A DNA stretch of 21,283 bases from a virus: IMG/VR virus record IMGVR_UViG_3300017765_000086, positions 1 through 21,283 of that record; one strand, 5' to 3'. The notes under the pieces are model-generated. The model made no database searches, was not told where the DNA came from, and saw only the letters and a list, made by a program, of their open reading frames with translations. Both the position numbers and the translations under genes were made by a program. Positions within the stretch are counted from its first letter, which is position 1, and the number at the start of each line of letters is the position of its first letter. Of this stretch, positions 10,824-20,577 are shown piece after piece.

Positions 10824-10852
10824 GGGGCAGCTTAGTGTTGCCCCTTCTTTTA
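10824..10852 (+). terminator. Intrinsic terminator of the rightward early operon
   Basis: Stem GGGGCA (10824-10829) pairs with TGCCCC (10839-10844) around a nine-base loop and is followed by TTCTTTTATT (10845 on). This is a standard Rho-independent terminator for plus-strand transcription. It lies in the 35-base space between convergent genes; its T run overlaps the stop codon (10850-10852) of the minus-strand 1206-aa gene. The hairpin read from the minus strand lacks an immediate U run (UCCGUAGUUUU follows), so leftward termination would be weaker. Confidence 0.85.
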
Positions 10853-13800
10853 TTGCGACATTTTCACAGCATTTTCTACATCTTCTCTAGTCATCTGTAT
10901 GTACAATACTAAGAAGTCTAATTGATTCTCATCTAAGTCTGTAATTTCCATGTCTAAGTCTAGCTTTATTAATGCTTTTTCTACATCAACTTTAGAGACA
11001 CCACTACCTCTCTTACTTAAGTTGTAAAGCTTAAGAGTCTTAGTATCTTCTGGATCAATACTATTCTCAAGTATATCCATAGTAGTATCTTTGGAACGCT
11101 TAAGAACATCGTTAAGCATAGCAGTACGTGTCTCTGTGTTACCATCTCTCCATGCAGGAGTGTTTATAGTACGCTCAGCATTAGCCTCTAAGAACGTAAC
11201 TACATATTTGTTGATGTCATTCTGTACTTCAGGAATAAAAGACTTGATGTTAGTACGCCACTGAGGTTTACCTACTTCATTAAACATACGTTGAATAGAG
11301 GTCTGACCCGGAACCTCACGATAACCAAAGATCCTACCTATAGGAGCCATTGCAGGGGTATCAGTTAGAGCACTAAACCTTTCTGGTGCTAACTCCTTCC
11401 CTGCTAATACAGTAAAGATTTGATCTACATAACGAGTTGACTTGTTTACAAACTCTGAGCCTTGCTTACGATCAATAGGTGTGAAGTCTTCGCCTCTGCT
11501 TAGGGCAATGATCTGATTGACAGGATCAAGGGGTCTTGAGTAAGCACTGAGATACATAGATCCAGTGTCTTGTACAACTTTAATTAAACCATCTCTAACT
11601 GCAACGTCCTCTCCTGTTGCAATATCTGCAAACAAATCATAAGACATTTTAGCTGTGTCACCTAGCTGTCGTGTAAGATTTTTAGGACCAAATACAGTTA
11701 CAACTTCTCTCCACATCTCAGGCGGCACTACTCCATCCTTAACGACATGAGCACCTAAACGTCCCATAGCTTTGTAGTAGCTGTAAGGAAAGTCATACAT
11801 ACGGTTACGTATTGCACCATCTGGGCCACGCTCATCAAATAAAGCTAAGCCTTCTTCCATGTTCTTCATCTCACGAGCAGTTACAACTCCAATAAAAGAG
11901 ACACCGACTGCTGACTTAGTAAGCAACTCTAAAGGGTCACGGCTAGTACCAGCTACATACTTATGTACTAAGCTTATACCTGTATGATCAAACATATGAC
12001 CTAATGTATTGTTAAAGAACTGCCCAAAGGGAACCATTGCACCAAACACAGGAACCTTACGTAAGTCTTCTATAAATCTAGCAGCAAGTGTTAGTGCACC
12101 CTCTGCACCTGTCTTACGATCTCCTCCATAAGACTTTGCGTACACGTTACGTAGTGCATCTTCAACAGCTACAGCTTGTATTCTAACGTAGTCATCTCCC
12201 TTCATTGATTTATATAGGTTAGGATCTTGTAAGAAATCTGTGTAGCTCATGCCGTAATTTATACGTATCTGTTTGTCTAAGGCATACATAAACTCTTGTG
12301 ACTTAGTAAACAAATCCTGTGCCTTAACACCATACACAGTCTGAGCAAAGTCCATAACTTTCTCCCAAGCACCGGGATTAGTAGTATCTTCTAACTTAAA
12401 TCCTAAGTTTTTGTATACATCATCAAGCTCAATTCCTCCTGACATGTAGCGGAATAATTCTCTTTGCGATTTAGGATTGGCTGCAAGAAAAGAAAATGCT
12501 GCTTGGCGTGTAGCATAGGGACTTACTAAGTTTGTAACTTTCTGACGTTGAAGGGTAAACATAAGCTTTGATTTGTTAGCAAACTCTGTTGCTTTAGTAG
12601 TACGTCCAATAGCCATCTCACCTAGTGCACGACCTCCGTACAACGCACCTCTTATAGTATCTGCTACAGATTGCATAGCTGTGGCGTTAGACCAACCAAC
12701 AATGTTTAGTGCAGTTGTACCGGGGTGTGTAATTAACATACGAATTAAGTTCTGCTGCATTGTAGCAGCACCTTCTTTTACTGTAGCCCTTGCTGCCTCT
12801 ACAGCTGTAGGAGTAGGCGCATCAAGGGTTTCTTCTACAAGTTCATTGTATTTTTCTGCAGCTGTCTGCCCTTTGGACAATTTTAAGTCTTGTTTAAGTT
12901 TAGAAAGTATATGACCTTGACGGCCCCATTCACTAGATAAACTAGAAAGAATGTTTAACCCACCTACCAAGCTTGCAGGTTTTCCATTAGGGTTAAACTC
13001 AGGAAGTTTCTGCATGGTAGACTTATATAAAGAATTAACTTCAGCTTTAGCTTCTTTAGGTAGGGCTTTAATAGTCTCTGTTACAAAGTCTGTAAAGTTT
13101 TTAAATGTATCATCTTCATTAGATAACTTAATACCAAAGTCATCAAAGATATTCTTTAGTCCTTTAAATACATCATCTCCATCGTTTACTCCATGAAAGA
13201 ACGCACCTAGTAACTCATCTCTGCGTGGATCAGATGATCCATCTGTAGTACGCCTAAGCTTATCTCCTCTGTTTACTTTAGCTGCCCACCTAGCTGCAGC
13301 AGTACTACTTTTATTTAGTGCTTTAGTAAATTCACTAAAGTTCATATTCTTGATAGCTTCTTTATTACTCTTCTTACGAGCTTCTTTTGCTAAAGCATCT
13401 ACTGCTGCTTCAGTTGCAATGGCATTATCATGAGCTTGCATAAATAGAGGTAGAGTTGCTTCACTGTGAGGTGCCTTGTTAAGTAAGCTAAGACCATAGG
13501 CTAGTGACCCACCAAATACCCCTGTAACACCAGTAAGAGCACCTTGTAGTACGCTGTAGTTATCTTGTACATTAGCTTGCATTTGAGCTTTTTGATACAC
13601 AGTATCTACAGTAACAGCAGCAGCACTATCAAAAGCAGCTGTTGCTATTATTTCTTTGCGTGTCATTGCCTTAAGGCTTTCTTTAAAGGCACCTTCTGCA
13701 ACACCTTCAACAGCCTCACCCTTAAGGATCTGACCTATTACTCTTTGCTCAATCTGATTAGCTTGTGTCTGCATAGCTTTAGTAAGCGTACCTTTTGCTG

Positions 13801-14470
13801 CTTTCTTACCTAGCGATTCAGTGACAAGTTTCTTAACTGTTTCTTTTGCAAGACCTGCTGCAACTTTTGTAGCACCGCCTGTAATAAGTTTACCAAAACC
13901 TAAAGATACTAAGTTAATAGGGTCTACAACAAGAGCACGCCCGTAGTCGTACACAGCGTCAGCCTTTTGAGCAAGCGTGTACTCCTCAGAGAAAGCACCC
14001 TTCATGTTATCAAAAAGTTTATATGCTTGACCTGCTGCTATCTTCTTAGTCTCATCATCTGTACTAAGATAGGCTAACTCTGTGCCTGTAGTTACAGATT
14101 GACCAAAGTTAAACTTACGCATGTGGTTGACGAATGAATCCACAATCTTCTGACGCCCATGCCTAGCCTCTTGCATACCAAAACGTTGATCCATGTACTG
14201 TCCAACTACAGCGAAGTTGTTGTCAGTCATTAGGTCATTGATAGTTTGAGCATCAGGTAATGATTGTAATGTCTGTCGTGTAGCAGTAGCTTTGTCGGTA
14301 GGCTCAGCAGTTACAGAATCTTCAAGTTGATCAAAAGTTTTTAGAGTGTAAGGCTTTGCCTCTTCAACAGTTTCAAGTTGATCAAAAGTTTTTAGAGTGT
14401 AAGGTTTTACCTCTTCAACAGTTTCTTTTTCATCAAGATCTCGAAATGTTTTAAGTGTATAATTAGCCAT
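10850..14470 (-). CDS. Very large virion protein, probable DNA-ejection (internal) protein, 1206 aa
   Basis: Last gene of the leftward structural block. Three N-terminal repeats contain YTLKTF (residues 4-9, 24-29, 41-46), the last two with DQLE and nearly identical DNA. The body is Ala/Gly/Lys-rich and helical, with several weakly hydrophobic, glycine-containing stretches (about 180-215 NLVSLGFGKLITGG; about 310-335 GALTGVTGVFGGSLAYG; about 575-595 MLITHPGTTALNIVGW; about 840-855) that could insert into membranes. No lysozyme or transglycosylase motif. Size, composition and location as the last gene of a structural operon fit the internal proteins that podoviruses eject into the host envelope ahead of DNA (functional counterpart of T7 gp16); this is inference. 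ATG 14470 lies eight bases after the upstream stop, with AGGA inside the upstream coda. Confidence 0.9.
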   Translation of the reverse strand: MANYTLKTFRDLDEKETVEEVKPYTLKTFDQLETVEEAKPYTLKTFDQLEDSVTAEPTDKATATRQTLQSLPDAQTINDLMTDNNFAVVGQYMDQRFGMQEARHGRQKIVDSFVNHMRKFNFGQSVTTGTELAYLSTDDETKKIAAGQAYKLFDNMKGAFSEEYTLAQKADAVYDYGRALVVDPINLVSLGFGKLITGGATKVAAGLAKETVKKLVTESLGKKAAKGTLTKAMQTQANQIEQRVIGQILKGEAVEGVAEGAFKESLKAMTRKEIIATAAFDSAAAVTVDTVYQKAQMQANVQDNYSVLQGALTGVTGVFGGSLAYGLSLLNKAPHSEATLPLFMQAHDNAIATEAAVDALAKEARKKSNKEAIKNMNFSEFTKALNKSSTAAARWAAKVNRGDKLRRTTDGSSDPRRDELLGAFFHGVNDGDDVFKGLKNIFDDFGIKLSNEDDTFKNFTDFVTETIKALPKEAKAEVNSLYKSTMQKLPEFNPNGKPASLVGGLNILSSLSSEWGRQGHILSKLKQDLKLSKGQTAAEKYNELVEETLDAPTPTAVEAARATVKEGAATMQQNLIRMLITHPGTTALNIVGWSNATAMQSVADTIRGALYGGRALGEMAIGRTTKATEFANKSKLMFTLQRQKVTNLVSPYATRQAAFSFLAANPKSQRELFRYMSGGIELDDVYKNLGFKLEDTTNPGAWEKVMDFAQTVYGVKAQDLFTKSQEFMYALDKQIRINYGMSYTDFLQDPNLYKSMKGDDYVRIQAVAVEDALRNVYAKSYGGDRKTGAEGALTLAARFIEDLRKVPVFGAMVPFGQFFNNTLGHMFDHTGISLVHKYVAGTSRDPLELLTKSAVGVSFIGVVTAREMKNMEEGLALFDERGPDGAIRNRMYDFPYSYYKAMGRLGAHVVKDGVVPPEMWREVVTVFGPKNLTRQLGDTAKMSYDLFADIATGEDVAVRDGLIKVVQDTGSMYLSAYSRPLDPVNQIIALSRGEDFTPIDRKQGSEFVNKSTRYVDQIFTVLAGKELAPERFSALTDTPAMAPIGRIFGYREVPGQTSIQRMFNEVGKPQWRTNIKSFIPEVQNDINKYVVTFLEANAERTINTPAWRDGNTETRTAMLNDVLKRSKDTTMDILENSIDPEDTKTLKLYNLSKRGSGVSKVDVEKALIKLDLDMEITDLDENQLDFLVLYIQMTREDVENAVKMSQ
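14321..14461 (-). repeat. Tandem YTLKTF repeats in the 5' end of the 1206-aa gene
   Basis: Two copies of a 33-base stretch are identical at 14321-14353 and 14372-14404, a period of 51 bases (17 codons, Y-T-L-K-T-F-D-Q-L-E-T-V-E-E-A-K-P). A third, diverged copy (YTLKTFRDLDE) opens the protein at residues 4-14. The near-perfect DNA identity points to a recent in-frame duplication. Confidence 0.9.
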
Positions 14471-14478
14471 TAGTTTTA

Positions 14479-16509
14479 TCAGTTCCTAATTAAGTCTACT
14501 TTGCCAATAGGTCCAGACAGGCCTTGTTGATTTACTACGAAATACTCTGTACGAAATTCAACTACGTCACCATCTTTAAGATTACCTAGCTTTAATTCAT
14601 TTTTTAAACTGTCAAAAGAGTTAAACTTAATAGCATCTGGAACTGCTTGAGTGCTTCTAAGTTCTGTGTAAGGTATCTTTCCCATAGCAACTACGTCTGC
14701 AGGGTCATTAGATCCTAATATTGTTTCTTCTTTTTTCTTAGGAATTACTCTCTTTAAAAAACTTAAACCTTTATCTATTAAACTCTCTTTTTCTTCAGGA
14801 ATTTTATTATCTTCTAAGTCTTGAATTAAACCCATAACTACAGCCTGTACATCTTCAGGTGCAGTCATAATCTTTGAAGTCATCTCAAGTGCTTTTGCTT
14901 CAAGAGCTTCATTACTAAGTCCTTTAGCATCAGCTTCAAGATATTCTTTTACACTATTAAGGGCTGATGACAAAGCAAGAGTATCGGCTTTCTTAACTTC
15001 TCTGCTAGTAGTTACATCACGCTTTTGTTCTCTGTCTAAGTCTGACAATGCATTAATAGATAAAGCATCCCAATTAGAAAGGGTAGGATTACCTTTGACA
15101 GTATCAGGAACATCTAAAGATAACATCTGTTCTGTTAAGTCAGTTGGTTCATTTTCTACAGTCTCAGTTCCCATCATAACAGAAGCTGTAGACTTAGTTC
15201 CTCGTTCCTCATCCCCTAATTCAAGTAGCTCTAAAAGTTTTTGTTCTGCTTCTGAGGCTGTTAAACCAGTCACATCAATAGGTGGTAGTTTAGCTATTAT
15301 AATTTTTCCATCTCTTGTTACCGTGATATTATTATCTAAATCTACACCACCACTTAACTTTATGTTTAGGACATCGCCGGGCGCAAGTTTAGTAGACACA
15401 TTACCTTGTTGAGTAATAGGTTGTTCGTCGGGTTCCACTACTTGAATAAGACCATTTAGTATAAAGAATTTATTTCCTGACGCTACACCTTCTTCTTCTG
15501 TAGGATAAGTTTTAATATCTTCAAGAGGTGGAATATCTTTATATATTTTAAAAAACTTAGCATACTGAGGTGTAAGACCTACTCCTAAGCCGCCTGTTTC
15601 TCTTTTAGCTGTTTCACTAGAAAAGAAATTAGGTACTGATTGTAAGAAGAAAGCGTTGTTACTTAAACCACCTCTAGTAAGATCATTAAATTCTAAAAGT
15701 CCATTACCTATAGAAGGTACAAGCTTTACCATTAACTCGTAGTTATCTTCTTTAATAGCAGCTGCTAATGAATTATAAAGAGATGCGTTGTCTCCTTTTG
15801 CTAGATCTGTTAATTCTTTTGATCCTTCATAAAGTCCACTTAAAGCTACTTCAGCTTCTCTTTCTATACGTAAAAGAGTATCTGTTGCATAAGCTCTTAG
15901 TGCTTGTGGTGAATGTATTTTAGGTAAGGCACCAAAGTCTACAGATAGAGGAGAAGTCAAACTAGGTGCAGGTGTACCAGCAATACGTCTTATGTCACTC
16001 TCAGTATAGTTATCTATATATGTTTCACCACCACCTGCTTTAGGATCTAATCCCATAGCTGCAAGGAACGCATTGCTTTCATTCTCTACTGGATTATCTG
16101 TAACATTTGCAGCATACAAACCAAAAGCTTTTGTAACCATGTCCTGATATGATGTACCAGAGGGCTTATAATCTTTTGTTCTTTGCATCATTTGCTTAAC
16201 AACATCCGATGTTAATCTACTAGGGTCACTTTCAAACCCTTTAACTTTTTCATAAAGTGTAGCTAAGGCTGCTGGGCCTGAAGTATCTACAAGATATGTA
16301 AGATCTTCTGGTTCAAAATTTAAAGCTTCAAGTCGTGCTCCTATACCAATAACTTTGTTTGCTTCATCTTTAGCTTTTAATACAGCTTGTGTACCATACG
16401 TCTGAAGAAAGTCACGAGTTTTAGCTCTGTGATCCCTAACAAACTTAGCGTGATCATCTAATGACTGACCAAAGCCTTCTGCCATACCTCCAAAAAAACT
16501 CAAAGCCAT
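14479..16509 (-). CDS. Virion-associated protein with Wza-like polysaccharide-export (PES) module, 676 aa
   Basis: The first 300 residues are helical and unrecognised (starts MALSFFGGMAEGFGQSLDDHAKF). Residues about 330-360 form a short beta module (TYPTEEEGVASGNKFFILNGLIQVV). Residues 375-430 read like the PES domain of bacterial capsule exporters: LAPGDVLNIKLSG, then NITVTRDGKIIIAKLPPIDV, then GLTASEAEQKLLELL, i.e. the GDxLxIxV…VxxDGxIxxP…VxVxGLTxxEAexxL pattern of Wza-family proteins. A helical linker follows, and residues 630-670 form another small beta domain (LKDGDVVEF, EYFVVNQQG). No signal peptide or lipobox, so it is not an exported host protein. The start ATG directly follows the TAA of the upstream gene, with AGGAG in its coda. 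Probably a structural or ejection protein. Confidence 0.88.
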   Translation of the reverse strand: MALSFFGGMAEGFGQSLDDHAKFVRDHRAKTRDFLQTYGTQAVLKAKDEANKVIGIGARLEALNFEPEDLTYLVDTSGPAALATLYEKVKGFESDPSRLTSDVVKQMMQRTKDYKPSGTSYQDMVTKAFGLYAANVTDNPVENESNAFLAAMGLDPKAGGGETYIDNYTESDIRRIAGTPAPSLTSPLSVDFGALPKIHSPQALRAYATDTLLRIEREAEVALSGLYEGSKELTDLAKGDNASLYNSLAAAIKEDNYELMVKLVPSIGNGLLEFNDLTRGGLSNNAFFLQSVPNFFSSETAKRETGGLGVGLTPQYAKFFKIYKDIPPLEDIKTYPTEEEGVASGNKFFILNGLIQVVEPDEQPITQQGNVSTKLAPGDVLNIKLSGGVDLDNNITVTRDGKIIIAKLPPIDVTGLTASEAEQKLLELLELGDEERGTKSTASVMMGTETVENEPTDLTEQMLSLDVPDTVKGNPTLSNWDALSINALSDLDREQKRDVTTSREVKKADTLALSSALNSVKEYLEADAKGLSNEALEAKALEMTSKIMTAPEDVQAVVMGLIQDLEDNKIPEEKESLIDKGLSFLKRVIPKKKEETILGSNDPADVVAMGKIPYTELRSTQAVPDAIKFNSFDSLKNELKLGNLKDGDVVEFRTEYFVVNQQGLSGPIGKVDLIRN

Positions 16510-17169
16510 TTAAACACTCCTACTCATTAGACCTTTACCGCTTGGCATGGGTTCTTCATTTACAATATTTTCTTCAGCAAGCATATCTATTTTAGGTAGG
16601 TCTTCTGTTACATCTTCTGCAGACACTTCTACACCTGAGTCCATAAGATCTTGTTGCTCTTGTTCTTGTGCAGGTGTTATATCAGATTGCATAGCTTCTA
16701 AGTTATCCTCACCAGAAGAACCCATAGCACTTAAAGTTTTTCTTGCAAACTCTTTGTCACCCTTACCTAAGTTGTCACTTAGCCTCTTGCTAATCAACAT
16801 GCGAAGTCTTTCTTCTTGTAGTTCATCATCAGTCTGATCAGCTTCAAAAGTCTCTTTGTAGTCTATCCCTGCAACACGAGCCATGTATCCTAGCTCTTCC
16901 TCAATCACAGGAGCAACTATTAAGCTAACATCAATAGAGTGCATACCCTCACCTACTGCAGCTGTAAGCATACTACGTGTAAGAACATCTGTAGGGTAGC
17001 CGAAATCCATAAGGAACAGTACAGATTCTGCAACAGGCTTTTCAGACAAACGATCTAAGTGAAACATAACTGCTTCATTAGGATCTGTAATCTCAGGAGG
17101 TCTTTCCCAAGCAAAGTTACTAGGTTCATCTGTAAGAGATTGTCCGGGTATGGGTGCCATCATTGCCAT
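16510..17169 (-). CDS. Conserved marine-phage structural-block protein (PGQSLT type), 219 aa
   Basis: Soluble acidic protein of unknown role. The opening (PIPGQSLTDEPSNFAWERPPEITDPNEAVMFHLDRL) and the following block (MHSIDVSLIVAPVIEEELGYMARVAGIDY, about residues 76-104) match, from memory, a protein found in many marine myo- and podoviruses within structural gene blocks. Residues 110-219 are charged, low complexity and likely disordered (ETFEADQTDDELQEERL; QEQEQQDLMDSG), ending with a short Gly/Ser tail. The composition would suit a scaffold or assembly chaperone, but this is conjecture. Start could be ATG 17169, 17163 or 17160. It is followed without any gap by the PES-module gene. Confidence 0.85.
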   Translation of the reverse strand: MAMMAPIPGQSLTDEPSNFAWERPPEITDPNEAVMFHLDRLSEKPVAESVLFLMDFGYPTDVLTRSMLTAAVGEGMHSIDVSLIVAPVIEEELGYMARVAGIDYKETFEADQTDDELQEERLRMLISKRLSDNLGKGDKEFARKTLSAMGSSGEDNLEAMQSDITPAQEQEQQDLMDSGVEVSAEDVTEDLPKIDMLAEENIVNEEPMPSGKGLMSRSV

Positions 17170-17184
17170 ATTTCTTTTACCTTA

Positions 17185-17628
17185 CTATTTAGTGAAACCT
17201 GCACCGAAGTACAAGCCTATGATTGCTGATACAATATGTGTATCTAGTGGTGTTATTACAAAGCCGTTAGCTGACTTCCATTGTATTGCTTCTTCAGGAC
17301 CAAATAGCCAATTCATAAAGCCACCTTGCACTTCTGTGTAACCTACAATAACGCTTACATCAGGATACCACACTGCCACTACCTTTGGCAAGACAATAAT
17401 TGATCCTACTGCAGCTAATGCTATAAGCCTACGTGTCCAAGCAAAGTGTGAGTCAGTCTTACCTGCATCACGTGCAGCGTTAACTTGGTTAGCTTTGAAA
17501 TTAGCATTAGCTAAGAGCATCTTATTCTGTTCAGCTTTACTCTTGTTAGACTGACCCCAGATAGACATGACTCCACCTAAGATGGTAGAGAAAAGCATAG
17601 TAATTAATTCTAAAGGTAGACCAAACAT
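17185..17628 (-). CDS. Three-TM membrane protein, candidate holin or ejection-channel component
   Basis: 147 aa with three hydrophobic segments: residues 5-24 (LELITMLFSTILGGVMSIWG), about 67-88 (RLIALAAVGSIIVLPKVVAVWY) and about 130-145 (HIVSAIIGLYFGAGF). Between the first and second lies a charged helix (NKSKAEQNKMLLANANFKANQVNAARDAG). Its ATG overlaps the upstream stop as TAATG (17630-17626), with AGGA upstream. Location among virion genes is compatible with a holin or with a small protein inserted in the host membrane during DNA entry; sequence alone does not decide. No dual-start or other holin hallmark is clear. Confidence 0.85.
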   Translation of the reverse strand: MFGLPLELITMLFSTILGGVMSIWGQSNKSKAEQNKMLLANANFKANQVNAARDAGKTDSHFAWTRRLIALAAVGSIIVLPKVVAVWYPDVSVIVGYTEVQGGFMNWLFGPEEAIQWKSANGFVITPLDTHIVSAIIGLYFGAGFTK

Positions 17629-18518
17629 TATTTTAATCCTGCTTTTATTATATCATCTGTAAAGTAACTTAGTGCTTCTTCCCCACCTTCTGCTCTAGCT
17701 GTGGCTTTAATCCACTCCAGCATATTTGTTTTTGTAGGAATCTTAGCTTTTTCGCTATCTAATCCTTGGCTCTGAGCTATAACTAATGCATAGTTTTTTA
17801 AGTGTGGTAACAAAGAACCTGTCTTTCTAAAGTGTGCTCTTTCGTCTGGCTCAGAAGCATAACGATTAACATATTCTTCTATAGTAGATGTTGCCTTTAT
17901 GTTAGCTTCTATAACTTTTTTAAGTGCACGAACACCTAACTCAGGAGAAGAAAAAGAAGCAAATGTTTCTTCTGTGTCTAAATTAGTTTGTCCTTTCCAC
18001 TTATTCTTTGATGAGTTTAAAATGTTTCCTAGATTGTTGTTACGCACATTCAGTGGAGAGTCTGCATTTACAGTTAGTGAGGCAGGTCTGAGCTTAGGTC
18101 TACCCATAAGGCCTACTGTATCTTTATCTTTATTTCCTTTTTCTTTTTTAGCGGCAATAGCTTCACGATCTGGTCTAGCTAAACCTAAAGGGTCTGGACC
18201 TTGTGATGCATTAGATTCCTCATCTCCCATTAAGAGAGTCATCCAAGACTTACCTACATTAGCAATTCTTTTTTCGTTGTCAGCATCCATCTGTTTGTTT
18301 TCTTCTTTCCTTGCACCCAAGGATCTTTGACGCATAGAATCTACAGTTTGTTTTGTGTCTGCTAAAGTATTTGCAGCAGCTTTTACGCCCTGACCTGTAG
18401 TAGCAGAGGCTGATTCACTAAGTGCTTGCTCAATAGCAGCTTGAATAGAATCGCCATCAATCTCTTCTACTATAGCATTTCGCATATCTGCACTGTTGTT
18501 TTTGCCACCAAATGTCAT
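17628..18518 (-). CDS. Virion protein with P5-like RNNNLGNI domain, 296 aa
   Basis: The C-terminal half (residues 155-296) carries NVRNNNLGNI (158-167), WKGQT, FASFSSPELGVRALKKVI and TIEEYVNRYA: the pattern of a phage domain usually labelled structural protein P5 or virion peptidoglycan-associated protein, whose typical form is RNNNPGNI…W.GQ…F..F.SPE.GIRA. The N-terminal half is helical, charged and Gln/Ser-rich. Start chosen at ATG 18518 because AAGG (18530-18527) lies eight bases upstream and the gene then sits 28 bases after the preceding stop. A longer frame from 18644 is open but would overlap the upstream gene by 98 bases, and its extra signal-like residues are read from that gene's own coding DNA. 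Possible wall-degrading or wall-binding role; catalytic residues not identified. Confidence 0.85.
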   Translation of the reverse strand: MTFGGKNNSADMRNAIVEEIDGDSIQAAIEQALSESASATTGQGVKAAANTLADTKQTVDSMRQRSLGARKEENKQMDADNEKRIANVGKSWMTLLMGDEESNASQGPDPLGLARPDREAIAAKKEKGNKDKDTVGLMGRPKLRPASLTVNADSPLNVRNNNLGNILNSSKNKWKGQTNLDTEETFASFSSPELGVRALKKVIEANIKATSTIEEYVNRYASEPDERAHFRKTGSLLPHLKNYALVIAQSQGLDSEKAKIPTKTNMLEWIKATARAEGGEEALSYFTDDIIKAGLK

Positions 18519-18546
18519 ATCTAATACCTTGTTTTTATCATTATTA

Positions 18547-20577
18547 TTATACTGCTGCCCCAGTACTGCCTGTGATACCATAGAAAAGAAGCTTACCAAA
18601 TAAACCACCAATAGCACTCTGTGAATCTGCTGCAATTTGTGCATCTATAGCTGCCTTCTGTGCTGTTATACCTAACTGTTGCATAATTATATTGTTTGCA
18701 CGATCTGATGAACTCTCTGCTGACTTCCATGCCATAGACATCATGTCACGCTCACGCTGCCAGATCTGATCTATTGTAGATGCAGTAAAAGCATTAGCTG
18801 TTTTAGCAGACTCAGCGTTAGCTATATTCTGTGCAGCACTATTTGTAGTCGCTACCTTCTGTCTCCAAGATGCATTTGCTTGTGCAATCACAAGTTGATT
18901 AGTTGCGTTGAATTGATCTCTCTGATTTATTACATCTGTATTAAACTTAGTCATAGCATTTGTAGCATCAGCATCAAACTGAGCCATAGCATTAGACTGA
19001 CTTACATTAAATTGTTCTACTTGTGATTTCATATTAGCCATGAATTGATTAGTTTGATTTTCACTAGTAGCGTTAAATTGATTTGCTGCATTCTGTGCTG
19101 CTGTGTCAGTAAGAATAGATTGGATCATACTCTGAGACTTAAAGATTTCTGTCTGTTGTCTGTTAGACAAGTTAGACATATCCATCTGTAAGAAAGACTG
19201 AGCATTCTGTGCTGCAGCTTGTTGCTGATTAGATAAGTTAGATAACTCTAGGTTAGCTATAGCGGATGCTTCAGCCATTACCATAGCTTGACGGTTATTT
19301 AGATTAGCCATGTTAACTGTATTAGCGTTACGAGAGTTCTCTAGTGCTACCTGTTGTTCAGCAGTAAAGTTCATGTTGGCCCTGTCAGCAATACGAGATG
19401 CGTTTTGAACTTTAGCTTGGAAGTTCTGGTCAAATTCCTGACCCATAAATGCAGCACGTTGTTCAGCTGCAAGCATGGCACGTTGTTGTCTGTTCGACAA
19501 GTTAGCCATCTCAAAGCCAGCTACAGTCTGTGCATCTGCAGCAGCTATAGGTAGTGCAGCTTCCATTGCAGCTTGTACAAGTGCTTGTCCTGCCATAGAT
19601 GAAGCACCTAAACCACGAGCAGTCATTGCAGCTGTAGCATTACGCAATGCTCCTGCAGCCCACGCAGGTGTAGCCCCTTCTTCAAAGTCTGCCATCAAGC
19701 CATCAAGTTGACCTTTTACAGTAGCTTTCTCTGAAGGCGTAGCCTCTGCAGCTTGCACTTGCTCTGTAAAAGCAGCAGCCTTAACAGCATCAGCTGAGCC
19801 AGAAATAATTTCCCCTTCTTGAATTTCCCTAGTGACAGGGTTATTCATTACAATACTACTACCTTGTGCTGCTTTTACGTCACCTACTGCAGTGTCAGTA
19901 GGCTCCATAGTTACACCCTCAAAGGTAGACCCTTCTGAAAGTGTACCTTGAGCAGCTTGTGTCTTATCTACTTCAGTTTGTACTTCAGACTTAGACGTAT
20001 CAACTTCTGCTTTAGATGTAGTAACAGCATCAGGAGTAATAGCTTGATCTGCATCTCCTACTTTAGTGACAGTACCTTGAGGTGCTGGGCCTAATTCTCC
20101 TGTACCAGTAGTAATAAGCTGATCACTAGTAGGAGTAATTTTATCTACGGTTTGATCTGTCGTTAACGATGCAGGATCAACTATTGCATCTGCAGTTTTT
20201 TGTCTTACTGCACCTTGTACTATATTAGAAAGCTCTCCTTGTAATTCATTGACTTTATTCTGGGCGTCAGTTACTTTTTGTTGAGCAGCATTAGTTCCAT
20301 CAACATTAACTGGCAATCCTTCAGCAACCATTTTAGCAGTTTGAGCTTGTTCATTAGCTAACAAAGTTTGTTGTTTAATAAGATTTTGTTTTGCAGCTGT
20401 TAACTGACTATTTAGTTTTGTGGTGTCTCCACCTTCAGCATAGCCTGAAACCTTTTTAGCCTTAGCTTCTGCTGCTTCAGCTTCTGCTTCAGAGCCATAA
20501 GATTTACCTATAGTAGACCCATGCTCTCCTGTCCAAGACCCTCCAGATCCACCAGCACTAACTAAAAATTTTGCCAT
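18547..20577 (-). CDS. Virion protein with long hendecad (11-residue) repeat array, 676 aa
   Basis: Residues 1-50 are Gly/Ser/Ala-rich, 51-125 a coiled coil (LNSQLTAAKQNLIKQQTLLA), 130-300 a Thr/Asp/Gln-rich probably disordered linker. From residue 355 to 618 the sequence falls into about 24 consecutive 11-residue units in one phase; the first part alternates units so that MANLSNRQQ-like motifs recur every 22 residues (425-430, 445-450, 467-474), the second has QFNxxxxNxxx every 11 (499-560). The C-terminus (643-676) ends in a short hydrophobic segment (GGLFGKLLFYGITG). Such 11-residue periodicity predicts a right-handed coiled coil. Probable internal/ejection or tail-fibre-like role; unassigned. 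Ribosome site is weak (AAGAAAG); 21 bases separate it from the gene before. Confidence 0.9.
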   Translation of the reverse strand: MAKFLVSAGGSGGSWTGEHGSTIGKSYGSEAEAEAAEAKAKKVSGYAEGGDTTKLNSQLTAAKQNLIKQQTLLANEQAQTAKMVAEGLPVNVDGTNAAQQKVTDAQNKVNELQGELSNIVQGAVRQKTADAIVDPASLTTDQTVDKITPTSDQLITTGTGELGPAPQGTVTKVGDADQAITPDAVTTSKAEVDTSKSEVQTEVDKTQAAQGTLSEGSTFEGVTMEPTDTAVGDVKAAQGSSIVMNNPVTREIQEGEIISGSADAVKAAAFTEQVQAAEATPSEKATVKGQLDGLMADFEEGATPAWAAGALRNATAAMTARGLGASSMAGQALVQAAMEAALPIAAADAQTVAGFEMANLSNRQQRAMLAAEQRAAFMGQEFDQNFQAKVQNASRIADRANMNFTAEQQVALENSRNANTVNMANLNNRQAMVMAEASAIANLELSNLSNQQQAAAQNAQSFLQMDMSNLSNRQQTEIFKSQSMIQSILTDTAAQNAANQFNATSENQTNQFMANMKSQVEQFNVSQSNAMAQFDADATNAMTKFNTDVINQRDQFNATNQLVIAQANASWRQKVATTNSAAQNIANAESAKTANAFTASTIDQIWQRERDMMSMAWKSAESSSDRANNIIMQQLGITAQKAAIDAQIAADSQSAIGGLFGKLLFYGITGSTGAAV
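18724..19515 (-). repeat. 24 in-phase hendecad protein repeats
   Basis: Codes for residues 355-618 of the 676-aa virion protein. Units begin at 355, 366, 377 … and keep register to the end, with large hydrophobics (F, M, L, V) at fixed places and N/Q/S elsewhere. At the DNA level the copies have diverged (only the protein period is obvious), so the array is old and under selection rather than a recent expansion. Confidence 0.8.

Follow-up and report, generated by a model that had tools for sequence, protein, structure and literature searches.

A polysaccharide-export (PES) domain inserted in a putative gp15-like ejection protein of an HMO-2011-type marine podovirus

Why would a phage late protein carry a domain of bacterial capsule exporters, and could such a domain take part in DNA entry? 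The wider question is how short-tailed phages build a periplasmic DNA conduit and whether host envelope machines are engaged. It is raised here by one late gene on the minus strand of the window, i.e., the whole stretch of 21,283 bases that was analyzed. In this gene, a preliminary description had noticed the pattern of a Wza-like polysaccharide-export (PES) module at positions 15220-15387 and had suggested that phages reuse a bacterial export ring for DNA entry.

The window covers part of the genome of a marine podovirus that belongs to the described HMO-2011-type group (PMC9038755, PMC6918029). DNA polymerase A, DnaB helicase, ThyX, RNR, and a MazG-like gene were recognized on the plus strand, and the late module is convergent, on the minus strand. 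The DNA polymerase showed 67% identity to that of CRP-603, 66% to CRP-207, and 55% to Puniceispirillum phage HMO-2011, and the values for the three Roseobacter phages CRP-603, CRP-207, and CRP-2 were 66-67%. Inside DNA polymerase A, a DnaJ_CXXCXGXG match, i.e., a partial DnaJ zinc finger, was found. By these sequence characters, i.e., the polymerase with its partial zinc finger and the conserved gene order, the phage is assigned to the HMO-2011 type.

The ORF at 14479-16509 (minus strand) is intact and encodes a protein of 676 aa, here called X. Within it, 15220-15387 translates to LAPGDVLNIKLSGGVDLDNNITVTRDGKIIIAKLPPIDVTGLTASEAEQKLLELLE. The only Pfam family matched in X was PF02563, i.e., Poly_export or PES, at residues 372-429 (E=8.5e-10). 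The score of 39.1 bits exceeds the curated cut-off of 28, and profile positions 6-63 of 77 were covered, so that the last PES strand (profile positions 64-77) is unmatched in the phage segment. Searching the genome with PF02563 returned 15223-15396 on the minus strand (E=8.3e-13, 43.2 bits), and NCBIfam exporter models gave weak matches at the same place. A bacterial PES profile, built from 11 domains with the phage sequence left out, matched residues 373-430 (probability 97.7, E=2.2e-12). Two homologues without the PES segment did not match this profile. Its HMM scored 48.9 bits with the real sequence and at most 10.7 bits among 5,000 shuffled copies, which places the match beyond chance at the level of sequence. 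The signature residues GD, DG, and GLT.sEA are retained. By profile, therefore, residues 372-429 (15223..15396, minus strand) are assigned as a true PES domain. The motif named in the preliminary description is thus real, and its likeness to PF02563 was confirmed.

The nearest sequences in bacterial genomes were PES domains of OPX-type proteins, with 30-45% identity. No close bacterial donor was found among them, the best match being 45% identical (Zixibacteria), and of 398 genomes from a single phylum, 24 had matches of 30-42% identity. The full-length AF2 model of X, made with four sequences, was unusable (pLDDT 48). Residues 355-460 were modeled with 11 bacterial PES rows in the alignment and reached a mean pLDDT of 64. 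The top 10 PDB matches of this segment model were all Wza/OPX proteins (probability 1.00), and the next was at most 0.21, but this fold match to Wza/OPX is not independent because the folding alignment contained bacterial PES. Used alone, without an alignment, the sequence of the PES module retrieved no OPX match from the PDB; the single-sequence comparison is therefore too weak here. A PES-like fold of the segment is predicted by the model. The likeness to Wza proposed earlier is seen in the ranking of the structures, at a pLDDT of 64 and with a seeded alignment that biases the comparison towards PES.

X is not an OPX exporter, because it has no SLBB domain, no evident signal, and a phage context. 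SLBB domains accompany PES in every OPX protein (PMC9603273), whereas no SLBB match was found in X in Pfam at E<=10. The OPX proteins, i.e., Wza and WzaB, have the PES sequence profile in common with X and, in the seeded model, its predicted fold. Unlike them, X lacks SLBB (PF10531) and the outer-membrane helix domain and has no evident lipoprotein signal; its PES lies within the chain (residues 372-429 of 676) and does not include the last profile strand, and its gene lies in a phage neighbourhood and not in an export gene cluster. The N-terminus, MALSFFGGMAEGFG, has no predicted hydrophobic segment. X as a whole has no Cys, no predicted TM segment, and a pI of 4.7.

The position of the gene points to another function. 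X is placed between a 219-aa gene (16510..17169, minus strand) and the last gene of 1206 aa (10850..14470, minus strand), so the order of small, middle, and large proteins is 219, 676, and 1206 aa. The sizes at the gp14/15/16 positions are 196/747/1318 aa in T7, 239/978/1270 in SP6, 181/898/1337 in phiKMV, and 200/837/1245 in P-SSP7, in which the gp15/16 assignments were themselves made from synteny and size. According to a review, synteny and size are the usual means of recognizing gp15-like proteins, which have 431-982 aa, and functional domains are often swapped among ejection proteins (PMC8954989). From its sequence features and its synteny with these four phages, X would be a gp15-like ejection protein at the periplasmic-tunnel position.

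The flanking genes fit this layout. The 1206-aa protein has no Cys and is homologous to the last gene products of CRP-9, CRP-207, and CRP-603; it is a candidate gp16-like ejection protein, and no hhalign match to T7 gp16 was found. The 219-aa protein was placed by alignment and phage search, and its gp14-like role is suggested by position. Proteins of its family start with PIPGQSLT..P.N.PWE.PP. The family is conserved across HMO-2011-type phages and was also seen in other Pelagibacter, Rhizobium, Sinorhizobium, and Vibrio phages.

Like X, T7 gp15, SP6 gp36, and phiKMV gp36 lie between genes for about 200 aa and more than 1100 aa, are of similar size, contain no Cys, and diverge fast. X differs from them in that it has no detectable homology to them and no lysozyme motif was found in it; a hexameric tunnel of X would be hypothetical. 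By hhalign, X and T7 gp15 aligned across 13 columns at E=0.11, i.e., no homology. Sequence and profile searches with X and the last gene gave no homology to T7 gp15/gp16 or to solved ejection proteins, and no ejection protein was among the PDB matches of X; because of this missing homology, we treat the gp15-like placement as an inference. The gp50-gp51-gp52 genes of N4 have the same small-middle-large layout as the window, and gp51, the periplasmic tunnel protein, has 644 aa against 676 and likewise no Cys (PMC12633501). In N4, however, the last gene encodes an RNA polymerase, and such a domain was not found in the last gene of the window. HMO-2011 gp23, CRP-9 gp37, CRP-603 gp45, and further syntenic genes occupy the X locus in the same phage group and are also free of Cys, but carry no PES.

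An independent argument for the placement is the exclusion of Cys, a feature of the entire family. Not one Cys occurs in 66 proteins of the X family (35,901 residues). Across 12 genomes, the 21,451 residues of X and the last gene product include no Cys at all, whereas the remaining ORFs of at least 300 aa have 379 among 58,488 residues. The gp15/16 proteins of T7 and P-SSP7 and the gp36/37 proteins of SP6 and phiKMV are free of Cys, and so are P22 gp7/20/16, Sf6 gp12/13, and N4 gp50/51/52. The internal proteins of epsilon15, with one or two Cys, are the exception. For the N4-type vRNAP, others have connected the absence of Cys with the route through the tail and periplasm (PMC3715699, PMC2784036). 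With this precedent, the absence of Cys is possibly a marker of ejection proteins, i.e., a proposed trait and not an accepted definition. The trait may also be of use for recognizing ejection proteins that escape detection by sequence similarity. As a separate observation, the proteins at the gp15/gp16 position of many podoviruses were Cys-free, and Cys occurred in most of the other long proteins that these genomes encode.

X thus resembles gp15-like proteins in its size, in its place between a gp14-like and a gp16-like gene, and in the absence of Cys, and differs in sequence. A different virion or morphogenesis protein, i.e., a tail accessory protein or scaffold, has to be considered, in which PES would act from outside, by binding polysaccharide on the host surface or the export channel. 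X indeed has no sequence link to known ejection proteins, and 22 of the 91 other ORFs of at least 300 aa in the 12 genomes are also Cys-free, some tail-fibre genes among them. Nevertheless, no trimeric fibre or receptor-binding domain was detected in X with Pfam and PHROGs, and the gene position and size argue against this reading, as does the complete lack of Cys in the family; we regard it as improbable. Based on the position, size, and Cys-free family, X is probably an ejection protein and would be present in the virion. The proposal that the carrier is an ejection protein is therefore better supported than in the preliminary description, but indirectly, and kinship with T7 gp15 was not found in its sequence.

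The next point is how the domain came into X. Alignment column mapping and new relatives place PES in a segment of residues 357-453 (15151..15441, minus strand), a linker hotspot at which relatives carry 2-46 residues. In two contigs, L132 and L133, closely similar X proteins carry 4 and 5 copies of VVGGGSE at this site. Because relatives hold 2-46 residues or VVGGGSE repeats there, the PES site is a natural variable-length linker. No other Pfam domain was found at the site in relatives. The repeat-carrying X genes run from 801 in L132 and from 4854 in L133.

The linker lies in a larger hypervariable central cassette (residues 201-453; 15151..15909, minus strand), which was delimited by codon-level comparison and by blastn borders at 15155 and 15908. 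The close relatives L001, L002, and L003 have residues 1-200 and 454-676 in common with X and lack the PES segment. Up to codon 200, most of the DNA is 85-100% identical to that of L001 and L002, with 73% at the start in the case of L002. The identity is about 45-70% over codons 201-355, the PES part has no alignable counterpart, and the identity is back to 92-100% from codon 455. By these DNA comparisons, the central cassette is recombined, with sharp borders. In this lineage, PES was inserted in frame at a tolerant linker within the exchangeable middle of X.

A single metagenomic record with no second copy found could also be an assembly chimera, i.e., a bacterial OPX fragment spliced into a phage gene. 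Against this, the frame is intact on both sides, and the GC content is unchanged (0.38). No SLBB continuation and no donor closer than 45% were found, and relatives show that the length at this site varies naturally. A chimera is accordingly very improbable.

PES within X is known from a single metagenomic contig. It was present in 1 of about 68 X family members and once among 63 syntenic or homologous proteins. It was absent from 15 related records, 12 of which are complete genomes, and from 49 and 5 further viral contigs. With tblastn, the PES module had no match better than E=6 in phage genomes. None was confirmed in viral contigs by peptides and two PES alignments, and the PES model returned nothing from a viral structure library. 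No other viral PES protein was seen in the collections searched, at the range of close or moderately close relatives that such searches reach. Three papers were found that name both Poly_export and bacteriophage, and by title and abstract they deal with polysaccharide export in bacteria. PES is hence a lineage-specific insertion and not a conserved part of the X family.

This distribution bears directly on the suggested reuse of an export ring, in which the PES ring itself would help to form the wall of the DNA tunnel. According to the review, T7 gp15 forms octamers or larger assemblies before ejection and hexamers afterwards (PMC8954989). X is in the gene position of the tunnel protein. In Wza, the PES domains form the base ring and are part of an octamer. 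However, about 67 members of the X family have no PES, the ring domains of the SLBB type are lacking in X, and PES sits in a linker. A PES-walled tunnel is therefore unlikely, and the reuse of a bacterial export ring for DNA entry is not supported.

At the other extreme, PES may be a passive spacer, i.e., a foldable domain caught in a permissive linker with no specific role. The short linkers or VVGGGSE repeats of relatives and the single occurrence of PES agree with this. Yet the signature GD, DG, and GLT.sEA was kept although the identity to the bacterial PES sequences found is just 30-45%. Because of this, PES appears much diverged without loss of signature or frame, and a spacer with no role is a possible but doubtful explanation.

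The favoured explanation lies between the two. X would be a gp15-like ejection protein of an HMO-2011-type podovirus, packaged in the head, which at infection would exit via the portal and tail and, once in the periplasm, refold there to contribute to the DNA tunnel. A stand-alone PES, descended from bacterial OPX capsule exporters, was inserted in it, and after ejection this domain would most likely have an accessory role in the periplasm, exposed on the tunnel. In OPX proteins, PES lies in the periplasm, and covariation links its base to the apex of the polysaccharide co-polymerase (PCP) (PMC9603273). Because PES is periplasmic and PCP-linked in OPX proteins and forms a ring in Wza, PES on X could dock on the apex of a host co-polymerase of the Wzc type, or laterally brace neighbouring tunnel subunits. 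Docking or bracing is preferred to a role in the core tunnel wall, since X proteins of relatives do not need PES. As a whole, an ejected gp15-like X with an accessory PES that docks or braces the tunnel is, by analogy, somewhat probable. The more specific idea of a capsule-exporter ring domain grafted onto a DNA-ejection tunnel, which would ring up in the periplasm like Wza or, as it extends to the inner membrane, dock on the host co-polymerase, is held tentatively. A PES on an ejection protein of one lineage, absent from the same gene of near relatives, would give a natural pair with and without the domain, suited to asking how the conduit is built and whether it engages host envelope machines.

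A second exchanged stretch was observed in the late module. The 338-aa gene (17628..18644, minus strand) encodes a putative peptidoglycan-degrading protein, as predicted by a PHROG endolysin match (E=1.5e-9). It is exchanged against L002 and L003, with a blastn break at 17633-18508. The protein is largely unrelated in close relatives and the flanking DNA is about 88-97% identical, i.e., a second exchange hotspot. Its N-terminus has a signal-like hydrophobic stretch. The gene overlaps, in another frame, the end of the upstream gene (18547-20577), which also encodes 676 aa; its start lies about 100 bases within that gene, and the same arrangement was seen in L001 and L002.
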